Origin: Singulisphaera sp.
GTDB lineage: Bacteria; Planctomycetota; Planctomycetia; Isosphaerales; Isosphaeraceae
Direction of reading: 5' to 3'
DNA: 53,912 bases
NCBI GenBank assembly: GCA_027451445.1
Contig: DAIDJG010000036.1
Coordinates: 1-53,912, forward strand
Shown: positions 19,755 through 51,859 of the stretch, one piece after another
Position numbering within the stretch: position 1 is the first letter of the stretch
How the letters are laid out: each line of letters begins with the position of its first letter
Notes under the pieces: generated by a model
Databases searched by the model: none
Told to the model about the DNA's origin: nothing
Seen by the model: only the letters and a program-made list of their open reading frames with translations
Program-made: the position numbers and the translations under genes

Positions 19755-19833
19755 AAAAAAGCCCCGTCCTCGCGAGTGTTCGCAAGGTGGGGCCGCCATA
19801 GCCATCGTCAGGGATCGCCCGTCACGAGCGATC
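19755..19833 (-). promoter_or_regulatory. Type A two-hairpin attenuator leader (USP operon)
   Basis: Read on the minus strand: P1 GATCGCTC-GTGAC-GGGCGATC (19833-19813), 9-nt linker, P2 GGCT-ATGGC-GGCC (19803-19791). The intrinsic terminator reuses the 3' arm of P2 (GGCCCC...GGGGC) and ends in six U (19760-19755). P2 and terminator cannot form together, so this is a transcription attenuator. P1 has 8 pairs and its loop G sits at position 3, as in all nine copies in the window. Confidence 0.8.
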
Positions 19834-19846
19834 AGTCATATCTTTC

Positions 19847-19875
19847 AGAATAAAGCGATCGATTCGATAAGGCAA
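19847..19875 (-). promoter_or_regulatory. Promoter of the USP leader
   Basis: Minus strand TTGCCT (19875-19870), 17-nt spacer, TATTCT (19852-19847). The -10 ends 13 nt before P1, so the transcript starts a few nucleotides before the leader's first hairpin. Confidence 0.6.
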
Positions 19876-19931
19876 GTCTATTGCGTTTAACGTCCGCCGA
19901 CGCATTCGCGAAACGTCTCGAGTCGGTTCCG

Positions 19932-20129
19932 TCAAGCCACTGCGTGACGGACTTTCTCGATCAGGCTGCGCACGATCGCCTCACGATGCTGGGCCTGATC
20001 ACGGTAGGCCGGTGTGTGCGTATGATGGACCTCGACGCGCGTCTCGCCCAGGGTGTACTCGAGGAGGGCGAGCAGTTCGGTTCGTTCTTCTTCGGTCAGC
20101 GACAGCGTCAGCGCGTGCGTCTGGGACAT
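19932..20129 (-). CDS. Small hypothetical protein (65 aa)
   Basis: Starts MSQTHALTLSLTEEERTELLALLEYTLGETRVEVHHTHTPAYR and is helical and acidic with a His-rich middle. GGAG lies 8 nt before the ATG. It follows the ECF sigma gene on the same strand after ~190 nt and may share its transcript. It resembles short planctomycete proteins of unknown function; I assign none. Confidence 0.55.
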   Translation of the reverse strand: MSQTHALTLSLTEEERTELLALLEYTLGETRVEVHHTHTPAYRDQAQHREAIVRSLIEKVRHAVA

Positions 20130-20318
20130 CGAAATGCTCCGATCAGAACAACGATCCGAGGACGCAGCGCCGAGGGAGTCCACCTCCCTCGCCCGCGCTG
20201 GGACGGGCCGTCGTGTTTTGTAAGAACTCTGATGGTCGAATCACTCTCTCGATTGCCATGCTCACAACAGGTGTACGGGTACAAGCGGGAAAAGTTCGCG
20301 AACTTTTGCGATGCTGGT

Positions 20319-20996
20319 TCAACCCGCGGCCTTCTCGCGAAGCCGGGCGATCGCCCCGTGCAGTCGCGATTTGACAGTCCCGAGGGGGATGTGAAGAGCG
20401 TCGGCAATTTGGTTGTAGTTCAGGCCCTGAAAGTAGGCCAGGTGCACGATCTCTCGCGATTGCTGGGGAAGCGATGAAAGCGATTCACGCACCCAGCGGC
20501 GACGTTCCTCCGTTTCGAGCGCAGCGCTCGGTGCCGGACTTTCGTCGGCCAGTGAAACGGCGAGGCTCAGGACATCCGTCTCGCCATCTCCGTACAGGGC
20601 GTCGAGAGCATACACCTTGACTCGCTTGACCTTTCGCAGGGCATCGATGGCCTGGTTCGTTGCGATCGCGTACAGCCAGGGACGTACGGGACAACCGTCG
20701 CGATACAGCCCGCATTTCAAGTGAACCTGGAGGAAGGTGTTCTGAAGCACGTCCTCGGCCGGCACGCGATCGTTCAGGTAGCCTTTGAGATGACGGAACA
20801 GGCCGCCGGCGTAACGGCGGACAAGCTCGTTGAATGCGCTGGAATCGCAGTGATCGCGATAGCGGCAGAGCAACTCGGCATCAGAAGCGGCCTCGACAGT
20901 GAATGGGAGGGAAGTGAGTTGCCTCTCAACACCGAAACCGGCGTCACAACGGTCGTCGATCCAGATGGAAGGCTCAGCAGTCATTGAACAGAACAT
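20319..20996 (-). CDS. ECF-family RNA polymerase sigma factor
   Basis: 225 aa. Sigma region 2 runs about 40-110 (FNELVRRYAGGLFRHLKGYL, then AEDVLQNTFLQVH), and region 4 about 165-222 (SLPQQSREIVHLAYFQGLNYNQIADALHIPLGTVKSRLHGAI). A ~35-residue N-terminal extension precedes region 2. GGGAG lies 9 nt before the ATG at 20996; an ATG four codons later is possible. No anti-sigma gene is adjacent. It is preceded by its own type A leader, so its synthesis appears controlled by attenuation. Confidence 0.92.
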   Translation of the reverse strand: MFCSMTAEPSIWIDDRCDAGFGVERQLTSLPFTVEAASDAELLCRYRDHCDSSAFNELVRRYAGGLFRHLKGYLNDRVPAEDVLQNTFLQVHLKCGLYRDGCPVRPWLYAIATNQAIDALRKVKRVKVYALDALYGDGETDVLSLAVSLADESPAPSAALETEERRRWVRESLSSLPQQSREIVHLAYFQGLNYNQIADALHIPLGTVKSRLHGAIARLREKAAG

Positions 20997-21123
20997 GAAT
21001 CCGGCTCCCGAAAGATCCCCGATGGGGATGCAAGTGGGTCGCGGCGTTCATGACCGCAGGATGAAAGGAGACGGGGAGGTGTACCTCATGGCTCGCGCTC
21101 AAGGGCGAAAGCATGGGGCGCAT

Positions 21124-21201
21124 GAAAAAACCCCGGCTCTGCGAACATTCGCACGGCGGGGCTGTCGTAGCCGGAATGAAGATTACCCGTCACGAGCAAT
21201 C
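21124..21201 (-). promoter_or_regulatory. Type A two-hairpin attenuator leader (ECF sigma factor)
   Basis: Minus strand: P1 GATTGCTC-GTGAC-GGGTAATC (21201-21181), 8-nt linker, P2 GGCT-ACGAC-AGCC (21172-21160), terminator AGCCCCG...CGGGG followed by U-rich end (21130-21124). The P1 arms differ from the USP copy yet remain paired (GC changed to GU and AU), which supports a real stem. The terminator ends ~128 nt before the sigma gene start. Confidence 0.8.
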
Positions 21202-21212
21202 CTTATCCATGG

Positions 21213-21242
21213 AGAATACGCTGCAATCAGTCCAGGAGTCAA
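21213..21242 (-). promoter_or_regulatory. Promoter of the sigma-factor leader
   Basis: Minus strand TTGACT (21242-21237), 18-nt spacer, TATTCT (21218-21213), ending 11 nt before P1. The remaining gap to 21403 shows nothing further that I can call. Confidence 0.6.
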
Positions 21243-21403
21243 GTGTTTTTTCTGAACGAGCCTCGATTTTCGGACTAACCTTCCGTTCCGCAGCAGATTC
21301 CGGGCGCCAGGGGGATCGGCGAGGTTGGTGAACGGATCGGTCGTTAGCGTGCAAGCTGGCCGTGCACCCGATCGTGGAATGCGTACACCTGCAATCGATA
21401 GTC

Positions 21404-22999
21404 TCAGGCCAGCAAATGGACTTCGCGGAGCGCCGCGAGCGCCTGGTCGATGGCGGGCTGTTCAGGGCAATCGGTGGCAATTGCGCGGCTCAGTCGTGCT
21501 GTCGGCTCAGGAAGTGGCTCCCAGCGCTCGGCCGCCTGGCGGTAGATGGACCAGTCCGCATCGGAGGCGTCGTCGCGTCGGCCTTCGACTCGCTGCTGTA
21601 TGATTGCCGGGTCGGCCTTGCAAAGGAGGAGAACCGTCGGCACGCCCCACCGTCGACCCAGGTCGAGGAAACGGTGACGGGTCGCCTCGTCGCGAAAACT
21701 TGCGTCGATCAGAACGCGCTGACCCTGGAAAAGGAGGTGTTCCGCCTGTCGTAAGCACTCGGCGTAAGTACGCTCGCTCCAGGCCGGTGAGTAGACGCCC
21801 TGCTCGAATTCGGCACGGGCGCTGTGGCCCGGATTGAGACCGGCCAGCTCCTTACGCACCACATCGGACCGGACGACTGTAAAGCCGGCGCGCTCGGCGA
21901 GCTGTCGGGAGAGGGTCGACTTACCCGTGCCGGGCAAACCCCCGACGAGCACGAGTCCCGGCCTTCGGGCCGGTTGTTCGAATTCGCTGAGCGCGAGGAG
22001 CCAGTGCGCCCTCGCACGATCGGCCGCCGCGAATCGGTCGGCTTCGGGGACCTCGGCCTCCAGGGATGCGATCCCCTCGACCTTGCCTCGCACGGCGGCG
22101 CGGTAAGCAGCGTAGAAAGGCAGAAGTACCGCTCCCTCCACATCGCCGCCGGCTTGAAAATAAGCGTCGGCGAATGTGCGAGCAAGGTCGCGGCGGCCGT
22201 GGCGGGACAGGTCCATGACCACGAACGCGATGTCCGCTACCGGATCGGCGTAGCGGAAGCGCTCATTGAACTCGATACAGTCGATGATGACGAGGTCGTC
22301 CGGACGCGGACGGTCGGGGAAGAGATAAATGTGATCGAGCCGTAAGTCGCCATGCCCATCGCACGGAATGTTCCGGGCGGCTCTGCTTTCGATCGTCGTC
22401 CGGAGATCCGCGAGAGTGGCGTCGGTGGACGTCCACAACCGATCGAAGACAGCCTCGCTGAGCGTCGTGCCCACGAGCGAGACCGACTGCTCGAGGTTCT
22501 CTCGCGCGTTGCCCGCGACGGCGTCGAAGCGGCCGTACTGCGCCACCGCAGGGCCACGCTCGGCGCGCGCGTGAAACGCCGCGAGTCGGCCGGCGAGAGC
22601 CTCGAGTGGCGCGGTGCCTAGCTCATCGCGCAACAACCGTTCGCTGAGCGTTGCCTCGTGCGGGAGGCGTTCCATCTTCACCGCCCATTCGATCGTTTCA
22701 CCACTTCCCTCGATTCGGATCCCCTCCGGATCGCGTGTTATGGGGACTACGCCGAGATAGACCGAGGGAGCGAGGCGGCGGTTGAGCCGAACCTCCTCCT
22801 CGCAGAAGTGACGGCGCCGGGTGAGCGTCGAGTAGTCGAGGAAGCCAAGGTTAACGGGTTTCTTGATCTTGTAAACGAATGGACCAGCCATGAAGACGAT
22901 CGAAATGTGCGTTTGGCGCATCTCGACCGACTCGTCACCGATCGGGTAGGGATACGCAGCAGAGTCGGCGAGAGCAGCCATCAGGCGAGCCAATTCCAT
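21404..22999 (-). CDS. Bifunctional APH-like / P-loop AAA kinase
   Basis: 531 aa. The N-terminal half is an aminoglycoside-phosphotransferase-like kinase fold: VYKIKKPVNLGFLDYS (Lys region), catalytic GHGDLRLDHIYL and IIDCIEFNERFRYADPVADIAF. The C-terminal ~180 residues are a P-loop kinase with Walker A GGLPGTGKST and VVRSDVVRKELAG. This fusion is widespread and of unknown substrate, and often sits in hypoxia/stress regulons with USPs. The ATG at 22999 has AAGGA upstream; the frame extends six codons to a TTG. It is divergent from hsp20. Confidence 0.85.
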   Translation of the reverse strand: MELARLMAALADSAAYPYPIGDESVEMRQTHISIVFMAGPFVYKIKKPVNLGFLDYSTLTRRRHFCEEEVRLNRRLAPSVYLGVVPITRDPEGIRIEGSGETIEWAVKMERLPHEATLSERLLRDELGTAPLEALAGRLAAFHARAERGPAVAQYGRFDAVAGNARENLEQSVSLVGTTLSEAVFDRLWTSTDATLADLRTTIESRAARNIPCDGHGDLRLDHIYLFPDRPRPDDLVIIDCIEFNERFRYADPVADIAFVVMDLSRHGRRDLARTFADAYFQAGGDVEGAVLLPFYAAYRAAVRGKVEGIASLEAEVPEADRFAAADRARAHWLLALSEFEQPARRPGLVLVGGLPGTGKSTLSRQLAERAGFTVVRSDVVRKELAGLNPGHSARAEFEQGVYSPAWSERTYAECLRQAEHLLFQGQRVLIDASFRDEATRHRFLDLGRRWGVPTVLLLCKADPAIIQQRVEGRRDDASDADWSIYRQAAERWEPLPEPTARLSRAIATDCPEQPAIDQALAALREVHLLA

Positions 23000-23401
23000 T
23001 CCGTCGTTTCCTTCCAATTCCTCTCGAACCTGACCCGCGCGAGTCCGGACGCTCCATCAAACCACTCATGCATCGCTCTTGACGATGATCGGACTTAGGC
23101 TGATGCATCCAAGCATGCGAGACATGCTCCAGGTTTATCGCAGCGTCATCGGGTAGCGAGCCGCGTGTTGACACCTCTCCATCATACCAATCAACACGCG
23201 CCACGGAGGTTCGGGGGCGAGGCGCAACCGATGTTGAAGCCGCGGCGACCTGGCCAACTTGGCGCCGGCGAGGGTACCAGGGGCCAACGACCGGACATCT
23301 CCGAAATTGAGGATCGCCCGCCAGCAATCGGCGCCGTTTTCAAAAAAATGCGCGAACTCCATACCGCTTGGCTCCGTTTGTTTGAGTGTAGTTCTCGCTC
23401 A

Positions 23402-23479
23402 CGCTCATGCAGGGCGCGGCGGGACGAAGGCTAGGGCAGCCCTGCCGTGCGGTTTAACCGCGCGGACGGGGCTCTTTTT
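23402..23479 (+). promoter_or_regulatory. Type A two-hairpin attenuator leader (hsp20 operon)
   Basis: P1 CGCTC-ATGCA-GGGCG (23402-23416), 12-nt linker, P2 GGCT-AGGGC-AGCC (23429-23441), terminator from AGCCC (23438) to GGGGCT (23473) with five U to 23479. Sequence outside the apical motifs differs greatly from the other copies while the architecture is kept. A clear -10 is not visible; a weak TTGGCT/TAGTTC pair lies at about the right distance. The terminator ends 35 nt before the hsp20 ATG. Confidence 0.7.
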
Positions 23480-23513
23480 GTTTCTTCACGCCAACCCAGA
23501 GGAGTTGAAGATC

Positions 23514-25166: not shown

Positions 25167-25231
25167 GCGGGAGGAGTTGGATTGAAGTTGGCCCCCTTGC
25201 TCCGTGGTGACATTGTGTAACGAGGTTGGCA

Positions 25232-28637: not shown

Positions 28638-28946
28638 TTAAGCCTCGATCGGACGATCGGGAAGCGGCTCCTGGAACCGATGAAGGATCAGGTTGGAAAG
28701 TGCAGCGACGGCGCTCTCCGCGTCGGGACCGAGGGCTTCCACGCCGAGGGTCGTGCCGCACGGAATCGCCAGGCAGGTGAGGTCGAGTACGCTCTTGCCG
28801 TCGGCGCGCATTCCGTTGCACTCGACCCAGACGAGCGACTTGAAGGACGAGGCCATGCGTGCAAACTGGGCGGCCGGCCGCAAGTGGAGACCGAGCTCAT
28901 TCAGAAGTGTCAAATGCCGGCTGGCGATGGTGGGGTGTTCGGCCAT
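28638..28946 (-). CDS. HPr-family phosphocarrier protein
   Basis: 102 aa from the ATG at 28946. It has the active-site His in NELGLHLRPAAQFAR and a Ser-46-like site in ADGKSVLDLTCLA. HPr carries phosphate from enzyme I in the phosphotransferase system; no other PTS gene is here, so a regulatory role is possible. An upstream in-frame ATG at 29042 would add 32 residues without family similarity. Neither start has a strong ribosome site, and the upstream one is only 27 nt from the leader terminator. It converges on the alcohol dehydrogenase gene. Confidence 0.82.
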   Translation of the reverse strand: MAEHPTIASRHLTLLNELGLHLRPAAQFARMASSFKSLVWVECNGMRADGKSVLDLTCLAIPCGTTLGVEALGPDAESAVAALSNLILHRFQEPLPDRPIEA

Positions 28947-29069
28947 CGGACTGCTACCACGGTAAGGGACGGGGCTGGAAGGCGCCTCCGTGTGAGGAGA
29001 GGAAAACGATTCCTGGAGCGCCTGGTCGGGTAAGTGGGTCATAAGCGATTCACGAAACCCTAAAACGAC

Positions 29070-29146
29070 AAAAAAACCCTCCCCACGCGCGGAAGCGCAC
29101 AGGAAGGGCTACCATAGCCGAGATCATGTCGCCCCTCGCGAGCGAC
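29070..29146 (-). promoter_or_regulatory. Type A two-hairpin attenuator leader (HPr)
   Basis: Minus strand: P1 GTCGCTC-GCGAG-GGGCGAC (29146-29128), 8-nt linker, P2 GGCT-ATGGT-AGCC (29119-29107), terminator AGCCCTTCC...GGGAGGG with seven U (29076-29070). The terminator arms have switched from CCCC/GGGG to CCCTTCC/GGGAGGG but still pair and still include the P2 3' strand. Confidence 0.8.
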
Positions 29147-35404: not shown

Positions 35405-36507
35405 GCGCGGTCGCTCCCCCGGATCGCAGCCACTTCCTCGGTCAGGTCGATCCCAACCGGACACCACGTAATGCAGCGCCCACAGCCAACGCAGCCCGAG
35501 ACCCCGAACTGGTCGATCCACGAGGCGAGCTTATGCGTGAGCCATTGTCGATAACGCGCGCGGATGTCCGGGCGCGTGCTCCCGCCGGCCACATGGCTGA
35601 GCTCGGGATTGAAGCACGAGTCCCACTGGCGCACGCGCTCGCTGCGCTCGCCCAGGAGGTCGGGCACCTCGTCGACCGAGTGGCAGAAGCACGTCGGACA
35701 GACCATCGTGCAGTTCGTGCACGACAGGCAGCGTCCGGCCACGTCATCCCAGCGCGCGTGATCGAGGTTCTCGTAGAGCAGGGCGGGCATGTCCGACGTG
35801 TCCAGGGTGCGAGTCATCTGGCGCTTCGTCGTCTCGGTAACTTGGTGAGCGGCTTCGATTTCACCGTTCGCCGCGCGCACGTTCAAGCCTACCAGCAACG
35901 CTCCTCCGCGCTCGGAGCCGACTTCGACCACGAATGCCTCGGGAAGCTCCGTCAAGGCCAGGTCGAAACCTTGAGTTGCCCTTGGTCCGGTGTTCATGCT
36001 GGCACAAAAACACGTGGATGCTGCCGTGCCGCACTGGACCGCGATGATGAACGCACGTTCGCGCCGGCGCTCATAATGGGGATCAACGTACGGGCCATGC
36101 AAGAACGTGCGATCCTGGACGGCAATGGCGTGAAGGTCGCAGGACCGGACGCCGAGAAAGGCGTAGCGTGGTACATCTGTCGACCCTTGGTGGACGGCGA
36201 ACGAGTCGGCGGTCCGCTCAATCGAAAACAGGGTGAGACGGGCAGGGAAGAGGTACTTCTTCCAGGAGTGCGGGCCGACCGCATAGCCGAAGTAGGCCCC
36301 ATCGTCGCGACGCTTCAGCCGATAGGAGCCCGGCTCCTGCTCGTCGGTCCAGCCAATGGGAAGTTGGTCGGCGGTCCGCAGTTCGTCGAAGACAATTGCG
36401 CCTTGAGCCAGCGTCGGACCGACGACGGTGTAACCCTCGGCCCAGAGCCGGGCGATGAGGTTGCCAAGCTCGGATTTCTCCATCACGACAGCGGAGGTGT
36501 TCACCAT
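35401..36507 (-). CDS. hydB: Group 3b hydrogenase 4Fe-4S (beta) subunit
   Basis: 368 aa. N-terminal ~220 residues resemble the HydB/AsrA family (SYRLKRRDDGAYFGYAVGPHSWKKYLFP; FLGVRSCDLHAIAVQDR). The C-terminal part carries two ferredoxin-like cluster motifs, CLSCTNCTMVCPTCFC and CVGCGRCITWCPVGID. It connects the FAD subunit to the hydrogenase dimer. The start overlaps the stop of the cyclic-nucleotide-binding gene by one base (TGATG), so translation is coupled. Confidence 0.92.
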   Translation of the reverse strand: MVNTSAVVMEKSELGNLIARLWAEGYTVVGPTLAQGAIVFDELRTADQLPIGWTDEQEPGSYRLKRRDDGAYFGYAVGPHSWKKYLFPARLTLFSIERTADSFAVHQGSTDVPRYAFLGVRSCDLHAIAVQDRTFLHGPYVDPHYERRRERAFIIAVQCGTAASTCFCASMNTGPRATQGFDLALTELPEAFVVEVGSERGGALLVGLNVRAANGEIEAAHQVTETTKRQMTRTLDTSDMPALLYENLDHARWDDVAGRCLSCTNCTMVCPTCFCHSVDEVPDLLGERSERVRQWDSCFNPELSHVAGGSTRPDIRARYRQWLTHKLASWIDQFGVSGCVGCGRCITWCPVGIDLTEEVAAIRGSDRA

Positions 36508-36995
36508 CAGGGCCGCTCCTTCGCGTGGTGTTCCGGACTGGCGAAGAGGTCGAGCAACTGCATGCGGGTTGTTCGGAGACGCTCGGAGACGACCGTCAGT
36601 AGCCGTCGCGTCAGGGCGTAGCCGAGGGAGGGATTAGCGTCGCAGAGGGCGCGGAGACGAAGCGAGTCGAAGGCATACGCATTGGTCGCGACGACGGCCC
36701 GCGCCGAGCTGAATTTCGGCTGATCGGCGAACACGTTGGACCACCCGAAGATCTCTCCCGGGCCCACGGTGAGGATCGTCACCCGTTTGCCGGATAGGCC
36801 GCTCAACTCAATGGCCACCCGCCCTTCCCGGATCAGGTAAAGCGACATCGACGGGCTTCCGTGACGGAAGATCATTGTGTCTTCATCCCAGTAAACCGGC
36901 GTAGCGAGCGCGGCTAGCGGCTCGATCTGCTCGGGTGCCAAATCGCTCAAGAACGCGAGCTTGGCCAGTTCGGACGGTATCGCCGGCTGCGACAT
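36507..36995 (-). CDS. Stand-alone cyclic-nucleotide-binding (CAP_ED) domain protein
   Basis: 162 aa: FLSDLAPEQIEPLAALATPVYWDEDTMIFRHG and SLYLIREGRVAIEL, GPGEIFGWSNVF, SARAVVATNAYAFDSLRLRAL. This is the beta-roll of the Crp/Fnr family followed by the dimer helix (LLTVVSERLRTTRMQLL). The polypeptide ends there; no helix-turn-helix follows, so it cannot be a normal DNA-binding Crp protein. It is the first gene after a type A leader and is coupled to hydB. It may act as a cyclic-nucleotide-responsive partner for a protein in the operon. Confidence 0.85.
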   Translation of the reverse strand: MSQPAIPSELAKLAFLSDLAPEQIEPLAALATPVYWDEDTMIFRHGSPSMSLYLIREGRVAIELSGLSGKRVTILTVGPGEIFGWSNVFADQPKFSSARAVVATNAYAFDSLRLRALCDANPSLGYALTRRLLTVVSERLRTTRMQLLDLFASPEHHAKERP

Positions 36996-37083
36996 GGATG
37001 ATGCCCTCGACTCCACTCCCTGGTCAGGCCTTGGAATTCACATGGGCTCACACAGTAGATCAGGTTCGCGTGAATCGCATATC

Positions 37084-37163
37084 TAACAAAAGACCCCACT
37101 CATGCGCAAGCGCACAAACGGGGCCACCCTCGCCGAAGTCGTACCACCCGACGGGAGCGGCAC
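37084..37163 (-). promoter_or_regulatory. Type A two-hairpin attenuator leader (hydrogenase operon)
   Basis: Minus strand: P1 GTGCCGCTC-CCGTC-GGGTGGTAC (37163-37141), 6-nt linker, P2 GGC(G)-AGGGT-(G)GCC (37134-37122; the fourth pair is mismatched here), terminator GGCCCCGTT...GTGGGGTC followed by UUUUGU. The U-run is interrupted by one C, so termination may be weaker. It controls a seven-gene transcript and lies back to back with the cbb3 leader. Confidence 0.75.
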
Positions 37164-37170
37164 ACGGATC

Positions 37171-37199
37171 ACTGTAGGAGTGCGCCGCGGCAGGGTCAA
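37171..37199 (-). promoter_or_regulatory. Promoter of the hydrogenase operon leader
   Basis: Minus strand TTGACC (37199-37194), 17-nt spacer, TACAGT (37176-37171), ending 7 nt before P1. Confidence 0.6.
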
Positions 37200-37295
37200 G
37201 CGTTTTCCAACGCGAGACACAACGATCAGATGTCATGGAGGAACAATGGCGTAACGCACAACGATGCCACATTCCGCAATTTTCGTGAGCCTATC

Positions 37296-37323
37296 TTGAC
37301 CTTTCGCCATCGGGGTGTATATT
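37296..37323 (+). promoter_or_regulatory. Promoter of the cbb3 operon leader
   Basis: TTGACC (37296-37301), 16-nt spacer, TATATT (37318-37323), 12 nt before P1. It is nearly the same -35 sequence as the divergent hydrogenase promoter about 100 nt away. Confidence 0.65.
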
Positions 37324-37335
37324 GTCTTTCGTTCG

Positions 37336-37410
37336 GTTGCTCACGACGGGCAACCTCTGTTGGCTATGAGCGCCCCAGTCCGTGTTTCCACACGGGCTGG
37401 GGCTTTTTTT
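37336..37410 (+). promoter_or_regulatory. Type A two-hairpin attenuator leader (cbb3 oxidase operon)
   Basis: P1 GTTGCTC-ACGAC-GGGCAAC (37336-37354), 7-nt linker, P2 GGC(T)-ATGAG-(C)GCC (37362-37374). The terminator, GCCCCAGTCCGTG-TTTC-CACGGGCTGGGGC, ends in seven U (37404-37410). The terminator stem has 12 pairs with one GU; the P2 closing pair is a mismatch. It ends 30 nt before the cytochrome ATG. Confidence 0.82.
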
Positions 37411-37440
37411 GCGCGCGGTCAGGCCCCTACGGCGAGTGCC

Positions 37441-38544
37441 ATGCAATTAACTTACCTCAGAACACCCGGTACAAGAGACCGTCGCCTGGTCGCGACGGGC
37501 GTGTTGTTGCTTTCAACTCTTGCCCACGCTGGCGGGTGCACCCGCGTACCCGAGCCGGCAGTGTTCGTCACCGGCAAACAAGTGGTCCAGCTCGATCCAA
37601 AGCTCCGTGAGAAGGTTCGCAAGGTCCTCGATGAGCAATGTGGCACACCCGAGAACATCAAGCTGCTCGGTGACGAGAAGATGAACCCGGCGCACCTTCG
37701 TAAAGGGGCCGAGGTCTATGCCCGCTACTGCCGGCAGTGCCACGGCGTCTCGGGCGATGGTGCCGGGCTGGCGGCGTCTTACATGAATCCGCGCCCTCGG
37801 GATTACCGCGCGGCAATCTTCAAGTTCACCTCGACCACGTACGGCGCAAAGCCGCTTCGCGAAGACTTGCTCCGCACGGTCCGTCGGGGAGTCCTGGGCA
37901 CGTCGATGCCTTCGTTCGACCTTCTACCGAAGAACGACCTCGAGGCCGTCGTCGACTATGTGCTGGCGCTGACCCACCGGGGCGAGCTCGAAACCCAGCT
38001 CGCCGAGGCCGCCGAATTCGACGGCGACGTCAATGCCGATCAGGTCCCCGAGCTGGTCGCGGGCATCCTCAAAAAATGGCGCGACGCGCCGGCGCACATC
38101 GTTTACCCAACGACCCCCATGCCTGACTTCAATACTGACACCGTAAGAGCCGGGCACGAGGCCTTCCTGCGTGTCGGGTGCTCGAAGTGCCACGGCGACG
38201 ACGGACGCGGCCAGACCAAGGACAACATCGGCGTCGATGCCTGGGGCTTCCCCACGAAGGCCGCGGATCTCACCTCGGGGATGCTCCGCGGCGGAACTGA
38301 ATCGCTGGACATCTACCGGCACATTGACTCTGGCATCAACGGAACGCCGATGCCTTCGTTTCGCAACGCCCTCAACGCTGAGCCGGCCACCGTCTGGAAC
38401 CTGGTGTCCTACGTCCATTACCTTTCCAACCGCCGCCGCGTAGGCGACGTCCCCGAGGCGGGCATCCTCAAGCCGTTGCCCGGCGTCGAACCCGCGACGA
38501 AAGCTCAGTCGGCCGAGCGGCCGTTGTCCCGAGTCACGCGATAG
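37441..38544 (+). CDS. Di-haem c-type cytochrome of the cbb3 operon (CcoP-like role)
   Basis: 367 aa. N-terminal signal segment (LVATGVLLLSTLAHAGGC) with a possible lipidated Cys. Two cytochrome c domains: CRQCH at about 97-101 and CSKCH at about 247-251, with later Met-containing segments (GTSMPSFDLL; GTPMPSFRNAL) as distal haem ligands. It heads the oxidase operon and would pass electrons to CcoO/CcoN. Classical CcoP has a membrane helix; here anchoring may be by lipid. Leader and promoter lie directly upstream. Confidence 0.85.
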   Translation: MQLTYLRTPGTRDRRLVATGVLLLSTLAHAGGCTRVPEPAVFVTGKQVVQLDPKLREKVRKVLDEQCGTPENIKLLGDEKMNPAHLRKGAEVYARYCRQCHGVSGDGAGLAASYMNPRPRDYRAAIFKFTSTTYGAKPLREDLLRTVRRGVLGTSMPSFDLLPKNDLEAVVDYVLALTHRGELETQLAEAAEFDGDVNADQVPELVAGILKKWRDAPAHIVYPTTPMPDFNTDTVRAGHEAFLRVGCSKCHGDDGRGQTKDNIGVDAWGFPTKAADLTSGMLRGGTESLDIYRHIDSGINGTPMPSFRNALNAEPATVWNLVSYVHYLSNRRRVGDVPEAGILKPLPGVEPATKAQSAERPLSRVTR

Positions 38545-44879: not shown

Positions 44880-45074
44880 TCAGGATGTGAGGACGGCCCG
44901 AGCGGGTGTTGCCGAGGCCGTTTTGGAGTGCAGGATTTCCTGACGGAAGACCGGCACCTCGAGGGGGGCTTCGATTCCGATGCGGACCTGGCTGCCGTTG
45001 ATGGCAACGACCGTCACGCGAATGTTGTCACCGATCAGGATCGTCTCATTGATCTTCCGGCTCAAAACCAGCAT
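44880..45074 (-). CDS. csrA: CsrA carbon storage regulator
   Basis: 64 aa: [23 protein letters not shown] and a [15 protein letters not shown] segment containing the RNA-contact Arg at about 44. CsrA dimers bind GGA motifs in mRNA leaders to repress or activate translation. GGAGG lies 7 nt before the ATG. It has its own type A leader, so a post-transcriptional regulator is itself under leader control. Confidence 0.95.
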
Positions 45075-45248
45075 GGCGCTTCCTCCGTGTTGTTGCGATG
45101 TACTGGAGTATTCCTTCAATCGTGGCCGTCGGTTGCGTTGGTCGGACGTTTGATGGACTACTCATTCTCAAGAAACGCACGTTGATCCCGTATGCGCGCA
45201 TTCGATTCCGCGCATTGACCCCTACCACCTTGAAAAACCGCGAGGGCT

Positions 45249-45345
45249 AAAAACACGAAACCCTCCACTGCGCCCGTATTTGAGGGGACGCAAGGAGGGG
45301 CTGTCTTAGCCGATGTTCTGTTCCAAGCCCGTCACGAGCCCTTGA
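45249..45345 (-). promoter_or_regulatory. Type A two-hairpin attenuator leader (csrA)
   Basis: Minus strand: P1 with apical GGGCTC-GTGAC-GGGCTT (about 45344-45322), ~11-nt linker, P2 GGCT-AAGAC-AGCC (45311-45299). The terminator, AGCCCCTCCTTGCG...GTGGAGGGTTT, has a U-poor tail (UUUCGUGUUUUU). P1's lower stem needs a bulge to pair. The terminator loop is longer than in other copies. Confidence 0.72.
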
Positions 45346-45354
45346 ACGAGCGGG

Positions 45355-45384
45355 AATGTATCACAGGCACTCCCGGTGCATCAA
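45355..45384 (-). promoter_or_regulatory. Promoter of the csrA leader
   Basis: Minus strand TTGATG (45384-45379), 18-nt spacer, TACATT (45360-45355), ~10 nt before P1. Confidence 0.55.
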
Positions 45385-45453
45385 GCCCATTTTTCTGGAT
45401 CGGAAACGGATTTTGACGCTACCGCTTTCTTCGAAGAGAATGCCTCGTTTCTC

Positions 45454-45483
45454 TTGTCTTTTCGGTGCGATGCCGGATAATAT
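45454..45483 (+). promoter_or_regulatory. Promoter of the globin-kinase leader
   Basis: TTGTCT (45454-45459), 18-nt spacer, TAATAT (45478-45483), 13 nt before P1 at 45497. Confidence 0.55.
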
Positions 45484-45496
45484 GAATAATGGCGGT

Positions 45497-45594
45497 GGAG
45501 GACTCAAGTCAGGGTGCTTCCCCCCACATTCTGATGAAGGGTTACGACAGCCCATACGACCTTTAACCACAGGTCGGTGGGCTGTTTGGCTTTT
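45497..45594 (+). promoter_or_regulatory. Variant type A attenuator leader (globin-sensor kinase)
   Basis: P1 has apical ACTC-AAGTCA-GGGT (45502-45515) on an interrupted stem; its loop is six nucleotides rather than five, with G still third. After a 17-nt linker, P2 is GGGTT-ACGAC-AGCCC (45539-45553). The terminator, AGCCCATACGACCT...AGGTCGGTGGGCT, is followed by a broken U-run (TTTGGCTTTT). The A-U apical pair of P1 replaces G-C of other copies. The U-run ends only 14 nt before the kinase ATG, and no Shine-Dalgarno sequence is visible there. Confidence 0.62.
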
Positions 45595-45608: not shown

Positions 45609-46799
45609 ATGAACTCGCCAGAACTTTATCTCCGCTATCAAGAGCTCCAGTCATACGTGGCGTGGACGGACGACGACGCCCGGCTCGTCGCCTCGCTGGC
45701 CGACCTCGTCGGACCGCACCTCAGCCCAATCATCGACGACTTCTATGAGGAAATCTCGCGACATCCTCACGCCGCGAAGGTGATCACCGGCGGCGCGGCG
45801 CAAATCGCGCGCCTGAAAGGGACGCTCAACCACTGGATTCGCGACCTTTTCACAGGCCGCTATGACGCCGAGTTCGTCGCCGTCCGCTGGCGCGTCGGCT
45901 GGCGTCACGTCGAGGTGGGCCTCGACCAGGTCTACACCAACGTGGCCCTCTCGCGCATCCGCATGGGGTTATTGCGCGTCATCCACGAGAACTGGCAGGG
46001 CGATGCCGACTCATTGATGGCCGCATCCCGGTCGTTGAACAAGCTCCTGGACCTCGATCTCGCGGTGATCGAAGACGCGTACCAGGCCGAGCACATGCAG
46101 CGCCAGCAACGGGTCGAGCGGCTCGCCAGTATCGGCCAGGTGGCCGGTGGCGTGGCGCACGAGCTTCGCAATCCGCTCAATGTCGTCAAAACATCTGTTT
46201 ACTTCTTGATCCATGCCAGGAACCCGACTGTCGAGAAGACGCGCGAGCACCTCGCCCGCATCGAGCGCCATGTCGATCTTGCTGATGGGGTGATCACGGC
46301 GCTCTCGAACTTCGCCAAGCTCCCTGTTCCCGACGCCCGGCCGTTCTCGGTCGAGTCCTGCGTGCGCGAGGCGCTCGAGCGCAACCCTGTCGAGGCACCG
46401 ATCGCGGTCGTGCTGGAGTTCCCAGCCTCGCTGCCTCACGTGTCGGCCGACTGGAACCAGATCCAGATTGTGCTCGGCAACTTGATTCGCAACGCCCGCG
46501 ACGCGATGGCCCAGGCCCCCAACGCTCGCCTCACGATCAGCGCCACGGAGGTCGATCACGCCGTCGAAATCGCCGTGATCGACAACGGCGTCGGCATCGC
46601 TCAGAAGGAACTGGCACGGATTACGGAGCCGCTTTACACGACCAAAACCAAGGGTTTGGGATTGGGTCTTGCCATCGCCCGCGCGATCCTCGATAAAAAT
46701 CAAGGGACCCTGCGCGTTACGAGTGAGCTGGGTCAAGGGAGCCGATTCGCGATCACGCTCCCCGCCACCCCAATTGATCCTGGAGACGAGCCGCGATGA
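45609..46799 (+). CDS. Globin-coupled sensor histidine kinase (protoglobin domain)
   Basis: 396 aa, soluble. Residues ~1-160 are a protoglobin/globin-sensor domain: YQELQSYVAWTDDDARLV, IIDDFYEEISRHPHAAKVI, and WRHVEVGLDQVYTNVALSR, where the His of WRHVEVG is the likely proximal haem ligand. A dimerisation helix with phospho-acceptor GGVAHELRNPLNVVKTS follows, then the ATPase domain (NLIRNARDAM, DNGVGI, GLGLGLAIA). Haem binding would make it an O2, CO or NO sensor. It overlaps the tandem-receiver gene by four bases. A variant type A leader precedes it. Confidence 0.9.
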   Translation: MNSPELYLRYQELQSYVAWTDDDARLVASLADLVGPHLSPIIDDFYEEISRHPHAAKVITGGAAQIARLKGTLNHWIRDLFTGRYDAEFVAVRWRVGWRHVEVGLDQVYTNVALSRIRMGLLRVIHENWQGDADSLMAASRSLNKLLDLDLAVIEDAYQAEHMQRQQRVERLASIGQVAGGVAHELRNPLNVVKTSVYFLIHARNPTVEKTREHLARIERHVDLADGVITALSNFAKLPVPDARPFSVESCVREALERNPVEAPIAVVLEFPASLPHVSADWNQIQIVLGNLIRNARDAMAQAPNARLTISATEVDHAVEIAVIDNGVGIAQKELARITEPLYTTKTKGLGLGLAIARAILDKNQGTLRVTSELGQGSRFAITLPATPIDPGDEPR

Positions 46800-47548
46800 G
46801 CGCTGAGGGACCGCGAGTTCTCGTCGTCGACGACGAGGTAGACATCTGCAAGAACCTGGCCGATATCCTGGGTGATTTGGGTTACGCGGTCGATGTGGCG
46901 CATGAGGGCGAGGGTGCGCTGAAGCTGGTGCGCGAGCGCCCCTACGACGTCGCGCTCCTGGACCTGAAAATGCCCGGTATGGACGGACTGACACTTTACC
47001 GCGAAATCAAGGCGCTGCGCGCTGGCACGGTCGCGATTATCGTGTCTGCCTACGCGACGAGCAGTACGGCGGAGGCCGCGCTCGGCGCCGGTGCCTGGAA
47101 GGTCCTCGCGAAACCGGTCGACTTGCCGAAGTTGATGGACTTCGTGGACGAGGCTGTTGAACAACCGTTGGTGCTCGTCGTGGACGACGATCTTGACCTG
47201 TGCAACAACCTCTGGGACATCCTTCGCGAGCGTAATTACCGCGTCTGCCTGGCGCACGATTCCGACGAAGCTGCCGCGCGGCTCAAGGACCAGGCCTTCC
47301 GCGTCGTCCTGATCGACATGAAGCTGCCCAAGGACAACGGCGGCACCGTCTTCCGCCTGGTCCGAAACGCCGACCCCCGGGCGCGGACGGTGTTGGTGAC
47401 CGGCTACCGTTCGGAGACCGATGAGCTGATTGCCGAGGTCGTCCGCGAAGGGGCCGACGCGGTCTGTTATAAGCCGTTCAACGTGCCTTCCCTGCTCACC
47501 ACCTTGCGCGACCTCATCGAGCCGCACAGGGGCACAACGGCGCAATGA
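46796..47548 (+). CDS. Tandem-receiver response regulator, partner of the globin-sensor kinase
   Basis: 250 aa. Two receivers: VLVVDDEVDICKNL, phospho-acceptor in VALLDLKMPG, LAKPVD; and VLVVDDDLDLCNN, VVLIDMKLPK, CYKPFN. No output domain, so the signal must pass to another protein by phosphotransfer or contact. ATGA overlap with the kinase gene. Closely similar to 9790-10518, including the PFNVPSLL-type end. Confidence 0.9.
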   Translation: MSAEGPRVLVVDDEVDICKNLADILGDLGYAVDVAHEGEGALKLVRERPYDVALLDLKMPGMDGLTLYREIKALRAGTVAIIVSAYATSSTAEAALGAGAWKVLAKPVDLPKLMDFVDEAVEQPLVLVVDDDLDLCNNLWDILRERNYRVCLAHDSDEAAARLKDQAFRVVLIDMKLPKDNGGTVFRLVRNADPRARTVLVTGYRSETDELIAEVVREGADAVCYKPFNVPSLLTTLRDLIEPHRGTTAQ

Positions 47549-47894: not shown

Positions 47895-47906
47895 TCTAAG
47901 GATGTC

Positions 47907-49256
47907 TCAGATTCCTGATGGGAAAGTCTCCGGCACCTCTCCCACCTCCCACTCGGTCGTGCGTTCCAGCGGCTCGACCGCCCGCGTGCGGTCGAAGTGG
48001 AGCACGGCATCGAACTGCGCCGGCAAGCTGGCCTGGAAGTAATGGCTGGCCCGCTCGGTGTCAGGACGGTAAATCACGCCTATGGCTCGCTCCAGACGTG
48101 GCTCACGGAGGCCCGCGACGGTCGCGCCGCGCAAATCGAGCAGGAATCGACTCGACCCCGCGTTGTGGAACAGGAATTCATAACTCCCCGGGAGGGCAGG
48201 CCGAACGCGCTTCCGCTCGGCGGGCGCGTCCCAGTTCGAGGCTGCCGTCACCGTTCCGTCGTAGGTCGTGAAGCCGATCAGGACCGAGTCGCCGCCGTGC
48301 CGCTGCCGCACGAGCTGACCAACATTCCACTCACCCCGGTCCCCCATCCGCGTGGCCCTTGCGTCACCGAGGTGGGAGTTGTGCGCCCAGAGCACAACTT
48401 TCGGCGATCCGCCTTGCTGGCCCAGGAACGCGACCAACGCATCGAGCGTGTCGGCCATGTGCCAGTCGCGCAGGTTCCAGGACGAGACCTCGCTGCAGTA
48501 CATCGCGCGGTAATACTGCTCGGCGTTCTGGACCAGCCGCGCGTTCTGCTCGGCACAAAAGTAGTCGTCCTCCGCGATCCGGCCGTCGCGCAGCGCGTAC
48601 TCTGCGGCCGAGCGGCGCAGGTCGACGAGCTGTCTGACGACCTCGCGCTCGCAGGATGGCCCAAGCCCGAGCCCCGACGCGAAGCCGTAGGCCTGTGTGT
48701 CCTCGCCGTAGAGGTCGAAGCAGGAGTAGCGGGCCCTCGCCCTCTCCGCCGCCTCGGGATCGATCTTGCCCAGGTAGGCGAGGACCGCCTCGATCGAAGC
48801 ATGTAGACTGTAGAGGTCCAGGCCGTAAAAACCCACGGCCCTCGAGCTCGCCTCGTCGTTATAGGCGCGGAGCCAGCCGACGAAGTCGAGCACCTCAGCG
48901 TTGCGCCACATCCAGGCCGGGAACCGCCGGAAGCCCGCCAGCGCGTCGATCGCCTCGGCGTCGTCACCCTGGCCACGGACGTAGCGGTTGACGCGATAGG
49001 CGTCCGGCCAGTCGGCCTCGACGGCGACTGCGGTGAAACCCTTCTCGCGGATCAGCCGCTTGGTGATCTGCGCCCGCTCGCGGTAGAACTCGTGCGTACC
49101 GTGCGATGCTTCGCCCAGCAGGACGAACCGGGCCTCACCGATCAGCTCGAGCAGCGGATCGTAATCCTCAGCGTCGCCCTTGAGTGGGCGAACCGTTCCT
49201 CGCAACGCCTGGATTGCCAGGTCGTCGCTTAATGTCCGGCCTGTCGCGATCATCAT
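47907..49256 (-). CDS. Erythromycin esterase-family hydrolase
   Basis: 449 aa. The family active-site blocks are present: [24 protein letters not shown] (Glu and His), [31 protein letters not shown] and [16 protein letters not shown]. Chromosomal members are usually not antibiotic resistance enzymes and their natural substrates are unknown. It overlaps the phosphoribosyltransferase gene by four bases. In many bacteria these two domains are fused in one protein or adjacent as here, so they likely act together. Confidence 0.88.
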
Positions 49257-49939
49257 TGGACCGCCTCCTCTTCGCGCACGGCCACGGCAGCGGCCGGGAC
49301 GACGGACCGGGCGAGGAGGTCACAGACCTCCTCGTCCGTCGTCTGTGAGAAATCCTCGTACCAGACGCCAACGGCATAAAGCGGCTCTGGAGTCATCACG
49401 CAAACGCAGTCGTCTGCCTCGTCCCGGAACTCGTCACAGGTTGATGGCGCGGCGACCGGGACGGCCACGACGATGTGTGCCGGTCGGAGCCGCCGCAGTG
49501 CGGCGACGGCGGCGCGCATCGTCGAGCCCGTGGCCAGGCCGTCGTCCACCAAGATCACCGTGCGCCCCCGCACGTCGGGAGCCCCGCGGTCGTCCCGATA
49601 GGCCCGCTCGCGCCGGGTCAGCTCGCTCAACTCCTCGGCCGCGACGGCATTGATCACCCGCGCGGGAATGTGCATGCCATCTACTACATCGTCGTTGAGA
49701 ACGGTCACGCCACCCGAGGCCACGGCGCCCATGGCCAGCTCCTCGTGACCCGGAACACCGAGCTTACGCACGACGAAAACGTCGAGAGGGGCCTTCAGCG
49801 CTCGCGCCACTTCAAAAGCCACCGGAACCCCGCCGCGAGGCAGCGCCAGCACCACAACGTCGGAGCGGCCCGCGTAGGCCTTGAGCCGCTCACTCAGAAC
49901 GCGGCCCGCCTCGGTTCGATCTCGGAATGCAGTTAACAT
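49253..49939 (-). CDS. Phosphoribosyltransferase-family protein
   Basis: 228 aa starting [19 protein letters not shown]. It carries a type I PRT fold: [43 protein letters not shown], and PRPP-binding loop [18 protein letters not shown]. Substrate unknown; typical partner of the erythromycin esterase family. GGGGGAACC precedes the ATG at 49939. A longer open frame upstream runs through repeat DNA and is not coding. Confidence 0.87.
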
Positions 49940-49961
49940 GGTTCCCCCTGCAAGTTCAGAT

Positions 49962-50156
49962 GGGAGTCTGTCCCAATAGTGCGAGAAGCGTGGAAATGGG
50001 GACTGGCTCCGGACGTCTTCGGACGGTGCCTGTCCCCATTTCCACGCTTCTCGCTCCGCCGGAAAAGGGGACAGCCTGAAAAGGGGGACAGGCACCTCGA
50101 AGTCTCGGAGCCAGTCCCCCTTTTCCGGCTCCGCTTCACTTCCGGGACAGACTCCC
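49962..50156. repeat. Compound inverted repeat of planctomycete type
   Basis: Outer 13-bp inverted repeat GGGAGTCTGTCCC / GGGACAGACTCCC (49962-49974, 50144-50156). Inside are two hairpins: a 23-bp stem at 49981-50003/50033-50055 (GCGAGAAGCGTGGAAATGGG...) and a second built from CCGGAAAAGGGG and its complement. The motifs GGACTGGCTCCG and GTGCCTGTCCCC occur in both. No gene in 49940-50229. Confidence 0.7.
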
Positions 50157-50229
50157 TGACGAGCGCGACAAATTCTGAAAGTTGTGGCCCATCGGCTGGA
50201 CGATGTCTGGGCTGCGGCTCGACTGGCGC

Positions 50230-50673
50230 TCAGCGGCGAACGGGACTCTTCCCGTGAAGCAGCGCCCGGATCCAGGCAACGTTTCGGCGCAGCTCCTCGC
50301 GGGAGCGGTGAAAGCCGGGGAAGCAGCCGCTCAGTCGCGCGGAGCTCACAGCGAGAGCCAGAGCCGCGACAACGATGGTCGCTGCCGCCGCCAAGAGCAT
50401 CGACCAGCCCTGATCGATCCCCAGCCGAACTGCCAGAAGCCGGGCAATCCCAAGAAGCGCCACCGGCACAGCGCCGGCCGACAGCACCACGCCAGCCGCG
50501 ACTGCAACCAGCGGGACGGCGGCCGCGCGGGCATTCTCCCGGCACTCGAGAGACGCGAGCCGAACCTGAAGCTCGACCAAGGTGGCGATGTCGCCGACGA
50601 CGTCGCCCGGGTCGTTCGCGCCAGAACCGTGGTGCGATTCGTGCCTTCCGTTCACCGACGCTTGATGAGCCAT
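50230..50673 (-). CDS. Phage-holin-3_6/DUF1469-like small membrane protein
   Basis: 147 aa. A soluble N-terminus ([27 protein letters not shown]) leads to two membrane helices ([25 protein letters not shown] and [18 protein letters not shown]), ending in a basic helix [15 protein letters not shown]. The layout matches the DUF1469 (YqjE-like) family that accompanies DUF883 proteins. It overlaps the preceding gene by 22 bases. Confidence 0.75.
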
Positions 50674-50864
50674 CCGAGTATGATCCCCGCGCCGAGCGCG
50701 ATCCCCAGCGCACGTACTGGTTCTTTGGCCACGTACTCCTTCACCCACTCGGTCCCTTCCGCAAGCCGCTCGCGAGCCGTTGCCTCCAGCTCCAGTGCCC
50801 GCTCTCTTAAATCGAACGCCTCGGGATCAAATGACGTTGTCTGTTCGCGCGCATTGTCGATCAT
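50652..50864 (-). CDS. DUF883/ElaB-like membrane-anchored small protein (70 aa)
   Basis: An amphipathic helix ([26 protein letters not shown]), the family signature [28 protein letters not shown] and a single membrane helix to a basic end. ElaB/YqjD-type proteins anchor ribosomes or act in envelope stress. GAGGAG precedes the ATG. ATGA overlap with the upstream gene. Confidence 0.82.
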
Positions 50865-51355
50865 CGATCAGAACTCCTCGCTTCTGGCCCGCGTTTCACT
50901 TGTGAAGAGGATTCAGTATCGTGCGGCGGCCGCACGGGCTCTGGCGCTGCCTGGCGACCTTGCTGATGGATCCACTGTTCGACCCGGTGCGCCGCGTAGC
51001 CCTGAGCGGCGCGGATTGCCACGGGGTAAGCGATTTCCCAGAGGGTTTTGAACACGTGCCGACCGACGCCCTGCGGCTGGCCGGGCGTCGGTTCCGCCAC
51101 CGGCTCTTCGAGCGAATCCGCCACCGGCGCCGTCGTGACGGTGGGACTCGGACGGTTCCCCCGCGACGGGACAATCACATATCCGGCTACGGCCGCCGCA
51201 GTCAGGAACGCCCAGGGATATTTGCGGACGTACCACCGCCAATCCGGCATGAGTTCACCGTCGCTGATGATCGCATGGATCTCCGAGTTGAGGTCGCGGC
51301 GAACCTGCGCCATCCGGTGCCGGATCTCAGCCACTTCGTCCATTCCTGCGCTCAT
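50861..51355 (-). CDS. Single-pass membrane protein of the DUF883 operon (164 aa)
   Basis: An N-terminal helix (EVAEIRHRMAQVRRDLNSEIHAII) precedes one membrane segment (YPWAFLTAAAVAGYVIVP) and a Pro/Gln-rich tail with a second amphipathic part (VFKTLWEIAYPVAIRAAQGYA). The layout recalls DUF3618-type proteins. AAGGAG lies 7 nt before the ATG. Third-party function unknown; middle of an envelope-stress operon. Confidence 0.7.
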   Translation of the reverse strand: MSAGMDEVAEIRHRMAQVRRDLNSEIHAIISDGELMPDWRWYVRKYPWAFLTAAAVAGYVIVPSRGNRPSPTVTTAPVADSLEEPVAEPTPGQPQGVGRHVFKTLWEIAYPVAIRAAQGYAAHRVEQWIHQQGRQAAPEPVRPPHDTESSSQVKRGPEARSSDR

Positions 51356-51373
51356 CAGATTCTCCTTCCACGA

Positions 51374-51751
51374 TCAACGTCGCCGGAGCGCCGCTCCGAG
51401 GACCAGGCCCGCGACAACGCCGACGCCGAACGCCGCCGCGACAGCCTGGGTCGGATTGGTGCGGACAAGCTCCTCGGCATGGTCGTAGCGTTCCCGCAGC
51501 TCACGCGCGGCGCGGCGAGCATCTTCCGTGAGGCGTTCCCCCGACTGACGCGCGCTCGCTGCGGAGTGGAGTAAGAACCGCGCGATCGCATCGCGGCCCT
51601 CGCCCGTCTTTTCCTGGATCCGGTCGACAAGCGCGTGGACATCGCTTTCGAGCGCTCTCAGGTCGTCGGCGGTCAGGTGCCCCCACCGCTGCGCGATCGT
51701 TTCACGAAGCGCGACGTCAGGACCGCGTGATGGCTGCTCGTCGGTCGTCAT
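51374..51751 (-). CDS. CsbD/DUF883-type stress protein (125 aa)
   Basis: Same layout as 11071-11460: CsbD-like start (QRWGHLTADDLRALESDVHALVDRIQEKTGEGRDAI), a helical middle, RELRERYDHAEELVRTNPTQ, one membrane helix (AVAAAFGVGVVAGLVLGAAL) and RRR. First gene of a four-gene operon. Leader terminator lies 33 nt before the ATG at 51751. Confidence 0.82.
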   Translation of the reverse strand: MTTDEQPSRGPDVALRETIAQRWGHLTADDLRALESDVHALVDRIQEKTGEGRDAIARFLLHSAASARQSGERLTEDARRAARELRERYDHAEELVRTNPTQAVAAAFGVGVVAGLVLGAALRRR

Positions 51752-51783
51752 GGTCGTCGATCTCCCAGAGGCCTATGAAGCGC

Positions 51784-51859
51784 AAAAAAGCCCCGACCCT
51801 GCGCCGGTGCGCAAAGCGGGGCTGTCATAGCCGGTTCTCTATCGCCCGTCGGGAGCGAT
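51784..51859 (-). promoter_or_regulatory. Type A two-hairpin attenuator leader (DUF883 operon)
   Basis: Minus strand: P1 ATCGCTC-CCGAC-GGGCGAT (51859-51841), 8-nt linker, P2 GGCT-ATGAC-AGCC (51832-51820), terminator AGCCCCGC...GTCGGGGC with six U (51789-51784). No clear -35/-10 pair upstream; the remnant reading frame ends 2 nt before P1, so the transcript may come from the globin-kinase gene upstream. Confidence 0.8.

Follow-up and report, generated by a model that had tools for sequence, protein, structure and literature searches.

Proteins that carry an ANTAR domain bind two-hairpin leader RNAs whose second hairpin competes with a transcription terminator (PMC3369931, PMC8934654, PMC7496416). 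The published ANTAR RNAs display hexaloops with an adenine at position 1 (A1) and a guanine at position 4 (G4), and the overlap of the second hairpin with the terminator is not found in every one of them. In EutV, M172 plugs the hexaloop and is essential; binding is abolished by the M172A substitution and also by the combined N173A/R175A/R177A substitutions (PMC8934654). In Myxococcus, NmpU, NmpT and NmpS constitute an oxygen-linked chain, the output of which, NmpR, is an NtrC-like DNA-binding regulator with a cbb3 oxidase, a P-type ATPase, a universal stress protein (Usp) and the nmp genes as its targets (PMC11841059). Described here are nine leader RNAs encoded in a 53,912-nucleotide (nt) stretch of DNA from Singulisphaera sp. 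(contig DAIDJG010000036.1 of assembly GCA_027451445.1). This stretch, hereafter the window, is one entire contig of a 10.9 Mb genome. The leaders are very likely antitermination switches read by a response regulator that combines a receiver (REC) and an ANTAR domain of the subtype designated type A, encoded at positions 14191-14796 of the same window, with the signal probably provided by an Nmp-like chain.

Architecture of the leaders

Listed below are the nine leaders together with the genes that they head. P1 and P2 refer to the first and second hairpins. All lie at the coordinates, and carry the loops, given in a preliminary description of this DNA.

19755-19833 (-): leader with P1 loop GUGAC, P2 loop AUGGC and a terminator; 5' of the Usp gene at 18572-19753 (-)
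21124-21201 (-): leader with loops GUGAC and ACGAC; 5' of the ECF sigma factor gene at 20319-20996 (-)
23402-23479 (+): leader with loops AUGCA and AGGGC; 5' of an Hsp20 gene
29070-29146 (-): leader with loops GCGAG and AUGGU; 5' of the HPr-like protein gene at 28638-29042 (-)
37084-37163 (-): leader with loops CCGUC and AGGGU; 5' of the gene for a cyclic nucleotide-binding, CRP-like regulator at 36507-37016 and of Fe-S, NAD and NiFe-hydrogenase genes (-)
37336-37410 (+): leader with loops ACGAC and AUGAG; 5' of cytochrome c and cbb3-type oxidase genes
45249-45345 (-): leader with loops GUGAC and AAGAC; 5' of the CsrA gene at 44883-45119 (-); its terminator was seen by eye only and was missed by the algorithm
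45497-45594 (+): leader with the six-nt P1 loop AAGUCA and P2 loop ACGAC; 5' of a protoglobin histidine kinase gene
51784-51859 (-): leader with loops CCGAC and AUGAC; 5' of the DUF883-like protein gene at 51374-51751 (-), the product of which matches below the Pfam cut-off

Each leader runs, from 5' to 3', from P1 through a linker to P2 and then to a terminator, the 5' arm of which starts in the 3' strand of P2. The tandem hairpins lie in the 5' leader, and the linkers fall within the range of the published class (about 2-25 nt). The longest spacers in the window are those of the 45249 and 45497 leaders. The identity of the latter is based on its P2 hairpin, its terminator and its position, which parallels that of leaders 5' of protoglobin kinases in relatives. 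The term "stress and respiration" originally applied to the downstream genes is a fair one, as can be seen from the list. The high density of copies that had been remarked upon is likewise real within the window, but it reflects a clustered regulon, and further copies reside on other contigs.

Seven of the nine leaders served to build a covariance model, R1, which extends only from P1 to P2, with promoter and terminator excluded. The seven were cut exactly; MAFFT misaligned the hairpins when applied to loosely cut leaders. The 45249 and 45497 leaders were not part of the seed, and an eight-row alignment had placed an insertion in the stem of the former. Searched against its own genome at E<=10, R1 gave 28 matches, namely the seven seeds, the 45249 copy, 15 others accepted by eye, and five (C325, C48, C203:7914, C408 and C276) that were discarded because, on inspection, they were considered coding or chance matches. 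The 45497 leader was not found by R1, and its addition to the 23 model matches brings the number of accepted leaders in the genome to 24. A second model, R2, was constructed from the 23 accepted rows, all of which differ in sequence, and was run on relatives, where it found further copies. The own-genome R2 matches on C547, C118 and C233 fall outside the inspected set, and the 65 matches from relatives discussed below were drawn from 54 fetched loci rather than from all R2 matches.

Earlier, the RNA could be matched to no described family. Indeed, at the gathering score no Rfam family matched in the window or in 13 loci, and two candidates from a loose-threshold scan of 36900-37500, Spot_42 and NsiR1, scored far below it. 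The architecture, however, is that of the ANTAR-target RNAs of the published papers.

The predicted pairing is supported by covariation. Among the 23 own-genome rows there are 35 cells in which both sides of a pair have changed, versus 11.1 in shuffled alignments and at most 9 with the pairing slid. For 64 distinct rows from relatives the corresponding values are 99, 29.2 and at most 38. Note that the alignments were fitted to the model, which favors the structure, and that the shuffles ignore relatedness. Two variants of the P1 stem had been called compensatory. This holds for ACUC:GGGU, whereas GCUC:GGGU differs on one side only, by a change from G-C to G-U. At the third pair of P1, all 23 own-genome rows and 63 of 64 rows from relatives have a U.G wobble.

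The overlap with the terminator provides a stronger check than covariation because the models contain no terminator. A terminator that re-uses the 3' arm of P2 follows 74 of 88 distinct matches (22/23 in the own genome and 52/65 in relatives), as compared to 20 of 3000 random positions, in keeping with the two-hairpin attenuator with competing P2 that had been proposed from the window. The sequence TTGAC occurs within 80 nt upstream of 52 of the 88 matches and of 195 of 3000 random positions. In 46 of these 52 a loose -10-like match, for which there was no random control, lies at a spacing of 16-19 nt, and in these 46 the -35 element begins 36-47 nt before P1. Given this placement of the -35 and -10 elements, the transcript probably starts near P1.

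Loop geometry

In all 74 terminator-bearing matches, the alignments of which were fitted to a five-nt model, both loops are five nt long with G at the third position (G3). Most P1 loops conform to N-Y-G-A-N, with A4 in 66 of 74, and most P2 loops to A-N-G-R-Y. A1 is present in 68 of the 74 P2 loops but in only 18 of the P1 loops. The sole exception in the window is the six-nt P1 loop of the 45497 leader, in which G is again third. Judging from their sequences, the leaders would thus behave like an ANTAR target while failing two defining features of the published class, the hexaloop and the A1/G4 pattern.

The resemblance to the eut, nas and ami targets of EutV, NasR and AmiR extends to the tandem small hairpins, the overlap of P2 with an intrinsic terminator, similar apical loops with a conserved G (plus A in P2), a C:G closing pair in P1, and a regulator of the REC-ANTAR plus kinase kind, as in the EutV system (PMC3369931, PMC7496416, PMC8934654). 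Unlike those targets, the planctomycete leaders have five-nt G3 loops, lack a conserved A1 in P1, and contain the near-invariant U.G wobble. The many ANTAR RNAs of Actinobacteria were also found by covariance models; as reported, however, these belong to a different phylum and were curated for hexanucleotide loops (PMC8164766).

Since both R1 and R2 were trained on five-nt G3 loops, a scan free of loop letters was also conducted on 80 loci fetched with the type-A alignment. When G was required in both loops, position 3 of five-nt loops accounted for 23 of 80 (other positions 4-9). Fourteen of these 23 pairs lie at R2 matches; the other nine probably include some chance occurrences.

The best surviving alternative holds that the leaders are ordinary published ANTAR-target RNAs, the pentaloop being merely a choice in drawing a heptaloop with G4. 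With the closing pair opened, both loops indeed become seven nt long with G fourth from the 5' side, as in the hexaloop. In the scan, position 4 of seven-nt loops accounted for 21 of 91 (others 4-10), which is equivalent to the five-nt G3 signal. In addition, 46 of 64 rows close P2 with U-G or U-A, and 6 leave this position unpaired. P1, in contrast, is closed by C-G in 60 of the 64 rows and by some other standard pair in the remaining four. Moreover, G4 of six-nt loops is at background (8/64; other positions 4-9), and A1 is retained in few P1 loops. On these grounds this explanation is considered improbable.

The proposed regulator and its distribution

The likely reader of the leaders was overlooked in the preliminary description; its gene lies outside the interval then considered, 19755-51859. 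The gene and its partner are as follows.

14191-14796 (-): REC-ANTAR response regulator of 201 residues, the proposed leader reader; type A, with Q168, A171, S172, N175 and K177 (EutV numbering)
14793-16346 (-): REC-PAS-HATPase hybrid kinase (NmpS-like); its gene overlaps the ANTAR gene by 4 bp, and a comparable arrangement occurs in relatives

The confident AlphaFold model of the regulator (mean predicted local distance difference test score of 90.1) displays a receiver, a long helix and two additional helices. Both the receiver and the ANTAR domain are present, and the phospho-acceptor, D56, is invariant in 20 rows. The residues that contact the flipped loop G in EutV, R142, K149 and E160, are retained, and the aromatic Y164 is replaced by F. 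Relatives of the protein in named genomes are planctomycetes, including metagenome-assembled Isosphaeraceae and Singulisphaera acidiphila. Four ANTAR proteins are encoded in the genome as a whole.

At position 172, methionine is found in EutV, NasR, AmiR and Rv1626, and serine in PAL, the LOV-ANTAR protein of Nakamurella (6hmj), with which the window protein shares S172, N175 and K177. PAL, unlike the system described here, is controlled by light, and its hairpins are described as having loops of six and nine nt (PMC10966536, PMC11381354). Residue 172 alone therefore does not set the loop size, and a simple code in which S172 signifies a pentaloop is not supported. The 80 loci yielded 71 ANTAR domains, of which 22 have the RNA in their locus; residue 172 is S in 19 of these, N in 2 and A in 1.

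The distribution of the RNA was determined in a family set of 45 genomes with 78 ANTAR domains, which were typed by the residues of their RNA-binding loop as A (34 genes), B (38) or C (6); one own-genome gene, on C296, was assigned to type B by overall sequence even though its residue 172 is R. At E<=0.01 the RNA was found in 26 of the 29 type-A genomes and in 3 of the 16 others (Fisher p 3e-6, phylogeny ignored). These 16 comprise ten genomes with type B only, one with type C only and five with no detected ANTAR, of which 2, 1 and 0, respectively, contain the RNA; two of the last five are only 64% and 77% complete. Within a single genus, a type-A genome has eight RNA matches at E<=0.1, and the two genomes lacking type A have none and one weak match (E 0.03), respectively. 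Co-localization follows the same pattern. When the 150 listed RNA matches of the family search are considered (more exist), 12 of the 34 type-A genes, where about 1 is expected, have an RNA within 20 kb, but none of the 38 type-B or six type-C genes do. In a class sample of 297 genomes, 24 contain the RNA at E<=0.01, that is, 23 of 68 with a strong type-A profile versus 1 of 229 others; the profile cut, E<=1e-20, was chosen after the table had been seen. The lone match outside the strong type-A set (G126) is antisense within an open reading frame of 493 codons and has no terminator, and two others (L265 and L266) have no clear terminator; all three are counted among the 24.

These distributions bear on two other explanations. 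The first is that a different RNA-binding protein reads the leaders, either CsrA, the gene of which itself follows the 45249 leader, or an ANTAR protein of type B, which is widespread in the family, or of type C. CsrA recognizes the motif GGA, which lies in a loop in just 1 of the 74 terminator-bearing matches. Only two of the ten genomes with type B alone contain the RNA, one of these without a terminator, and neither type B nor type C genes lie near a listed RNA. Such a reader is accordingly thought quite unlikely. The second, given slightly less credence still, is a metabolite or ion riboswitch, or another self-acting attenuator, in which P1 and P2 bind a small ligand with no protein involved. 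A compact structured leader with a terminator 5' of many operons, and without an Rfam match, would fit this description. The structure, however, consists of just two short hairpins with no junction or large conserved core, the conserved letters being confined to the two loops and the nearest pairs, and the presence of the RNA follows the ANTAR subtype, with none in the five family genomes devoid of a detected ANTAR.

Least probable of all is that no regulator reads the leaders and that they are ordinary dispersed repeats or constitutive promoter-terminator units. Although promoter-like sequence lies close to the terminator and many copies occur per genome, G3 recurs in both loops (in part by construction of the model, but with the same peak in the scan free of loop letters), the stems change by compensation, no two of the 23 own-genome rows are alike, and the window leaders head functionally related genes.

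A putative oxygen phosphorelay

Further components of a putative phosphorelay are encoded in the window.

45609-46799 (+): protoglobin-HisKA-HATPase sensor kinase (NmpU/AfGcHK-like), headed by the 45497 leader
46796-47548 (+): double-receiver protein (NmpT-like) with two Response_reg stretches; its gene overlaps the kinase gene by 4 bp
52019-53218 (-): second protoglobin histidine kinase
9790-10518 (-): second double-receiver protein

The protoglobin domain matches AfGcHK (5ohe, E 1.6e-26). All three Nmp parts are thus present but split, with the 45497 leader, the protoglobin kinase and the double-receiver protein in one place and the REC-PAS kinase and REC-ANTAR regulator in another. The second kinase and second double-receiver protein suggest that the sensing arm may be duplicated.

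In some relatives the parts are found together. In S. acidiphila (L160) a leader scoring 26.4 bits, with its own terminator, lies 68 nt 5' of the gene for a protoglobin-PAS kinase, the only kinase of this locus, which overlaps a type-A ANTAR gene. Genes for a protoglobin kinase, a double-receiver protein and a REC-kinase separate the leader from the ANTAR gene in L174 and L196. L158 (leader 24.6 bits) has the protoglobin and REC-PAS kinases, with no double-receiver gene seen between them. Apart from L160, six named loci have an upstream leader that points the same way. How the leader relates to the operon is less clear in L153, where 1.3 kb separate it from the kinase reading frame, and in L195, where it overlaps a possible start of that frame. 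In 10 of 13 loci the last 4 bp of a long reading frame lie within the ANTAR gene; all ten reading frames scanned upstream of ANTAR genes encode kinases, eight with the 4-bp overlap.

The protoglobin kinase, double-receiver protein, REC-kinase and gene order are like those of NmpRSTU from Myxococcus and AfGcHK from Anaeromyxobacter, and the window leaders head genes comparable to the reported Nmp regulon of cbb3 oxidase, P-type ATPase, Usp and the system's own genes (PMC11841059). The difference lies in the output. Whereas that in Myxococcus is an NtrC-like, sigma54-type DNA-binding regulator (PMC11841059), the planctomycete output would be an RNA-binding REC-ANTAR protein acting on leaders. 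In these loci the gene after the kinase encodes REC-ANTAR rather than an NtrC-like sigma54 regulator; no search was made for an NmpR encoded separately, in another part of the genome.

Proposed mechanism

On the basis of the RNA anatomy, terminator overlap, covariation, the ANTAR gene in the window, co-occurrence, co-localization and gene order, all of which were computed, we infer binding, antitermination, the flow of phosphoryl groups and the sign of the oxygen response as follows. With the regulator inactive, the 3' strand of P2 would pair into the terminator, and transcription would end inside the leader. Once phosphorylated, ANTAR dimers would hold P1 and P2, contacting G3 of the loops, such that the terminator could not form and the operon would be transcribed. 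The signal would pass from the protoglobin kinase, as sensor of oxygen or another gas, to the double-receiver protein, the REC-PAS kinase and finally REC-ANTAR. By analogy with Myxococcus NmpRSTU, activation would occur at low oxygen, with antitermination switched on as oxygen falls.

Several observations weigh against this model. Relative to EutV, residues R168, M172, N173, R175 and R177 are replaced by Q, S, D, N and K in the window protein, the changes at M172 and R175 counting against the model (the absence of R168, M172 and R175 also sets the planctomycete domain apart from the published EutV), and the leader loops differ from the published A1/G4 hexaloops. Low scores were obtained for the operon leader of S. 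acidiphila (26.4 bits) and for its GP187 counterpart (24.6 bits), and no leader was found 5' of the window's own kinase-ANTAR operon. Some type-A genomes have a weak RNA match (G006, E 0.038; G031, E 0.042) or none (G032). Conversely, at E<=0.1 the RNA occurs with no detected type-A gene in G012 (four matches) and G044 (two), the assemblies of which are 81% and 74% complete and the fetched matches of which carry terminators, and in G030, where the match has no terminator. In the class sample, 45 of the 68 strong type-A-profile genomes have no R2 match; either the RNA of these genomes is divergent or lost, or the stricter filter passed it over. The genomes are related, so that the Fisher tests overstate independence and the p values are optimistic. 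Finally, the clustering of regulator and RNA could mirror a functional gene cluster with no direct binding.

Even so, the leaders represent a real and widespread antitermination-type element of planctomycetes, most likely read by a type-A REC-ANTAR protein at the end of an oxygen phosphorelay, and a variant of ANTAR control. The new features would be the five-nt G3 loops and the coupling of Nmp-like oxygen-sensing kinases to an RNA-binding rather than a DNA-binding output. A broader proposal, put forward with less assurance but still somewhat favored, is that the Planctomycetia employ a distinct ANTAR code, in which paired pentaloops with a central G meet a small residue where EutV has the methionine that plugs the loop, and an Nmp-type relay with an RNA-binding output that controls a multi-operon, low-oxygen regulon by antitermination. 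No account of these leaders was found in the literature, most subscription papers and bioRxiv as a collection being outside the search. If correct, the model would imply a large RNA-based regulon in Planctomycetes, given 24 accepted leaders in one genome, and one kind of sensory phosphorelay with different outputs in two phyla, DNA binding in the one and antitermination in the other. It would also make loop size and the residues around position 172 directly testable as determinants of ANTAR specificity. The covariance model provides an annotation handle for leaders with no Rfam family.

Additional observations

The leaders frequently occur as divergent pairs, one per strand and a few hundred bases apart or closer, that head two transcription units.

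Window, 37122-37374: divergent leader pair
Window, 45299-45552: divergent leader pair
L013, 1217-1541: divergent leader pair
L169, 2777-2954: divergent leader pair
L185, 340-about 530: divergent leader pair

Elsewhere in the own genome, two RNA matches on the same strand are separated by less than 200 nt (G000:C547:11777-11994, -) and may belong to a single transcript as tandem leaders. In G000:C609:2862-5202 there is a second type-A ANTAR gene, with a leader 2.3 kb away that lies 5' of another Hsp20 gene. REC-ANTAR proteins of type B, mostly with Q172 and R175 (for example, G000:C473:452-610 and C296:14028-14183), are encoded in most genomes of the family. Between the 21124 and 23402 leaders of the window, a single protein (21404-23017, -) contains both an AAA (zeta-toxin-like) kinase domain and a stretch of the phosphotransferase family. 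An erythromycin esterase-like gene, encoded like the 51784 leader on the minus strand, adjoins one with a phosphoribosyltransferase domain (47907-50713, -).

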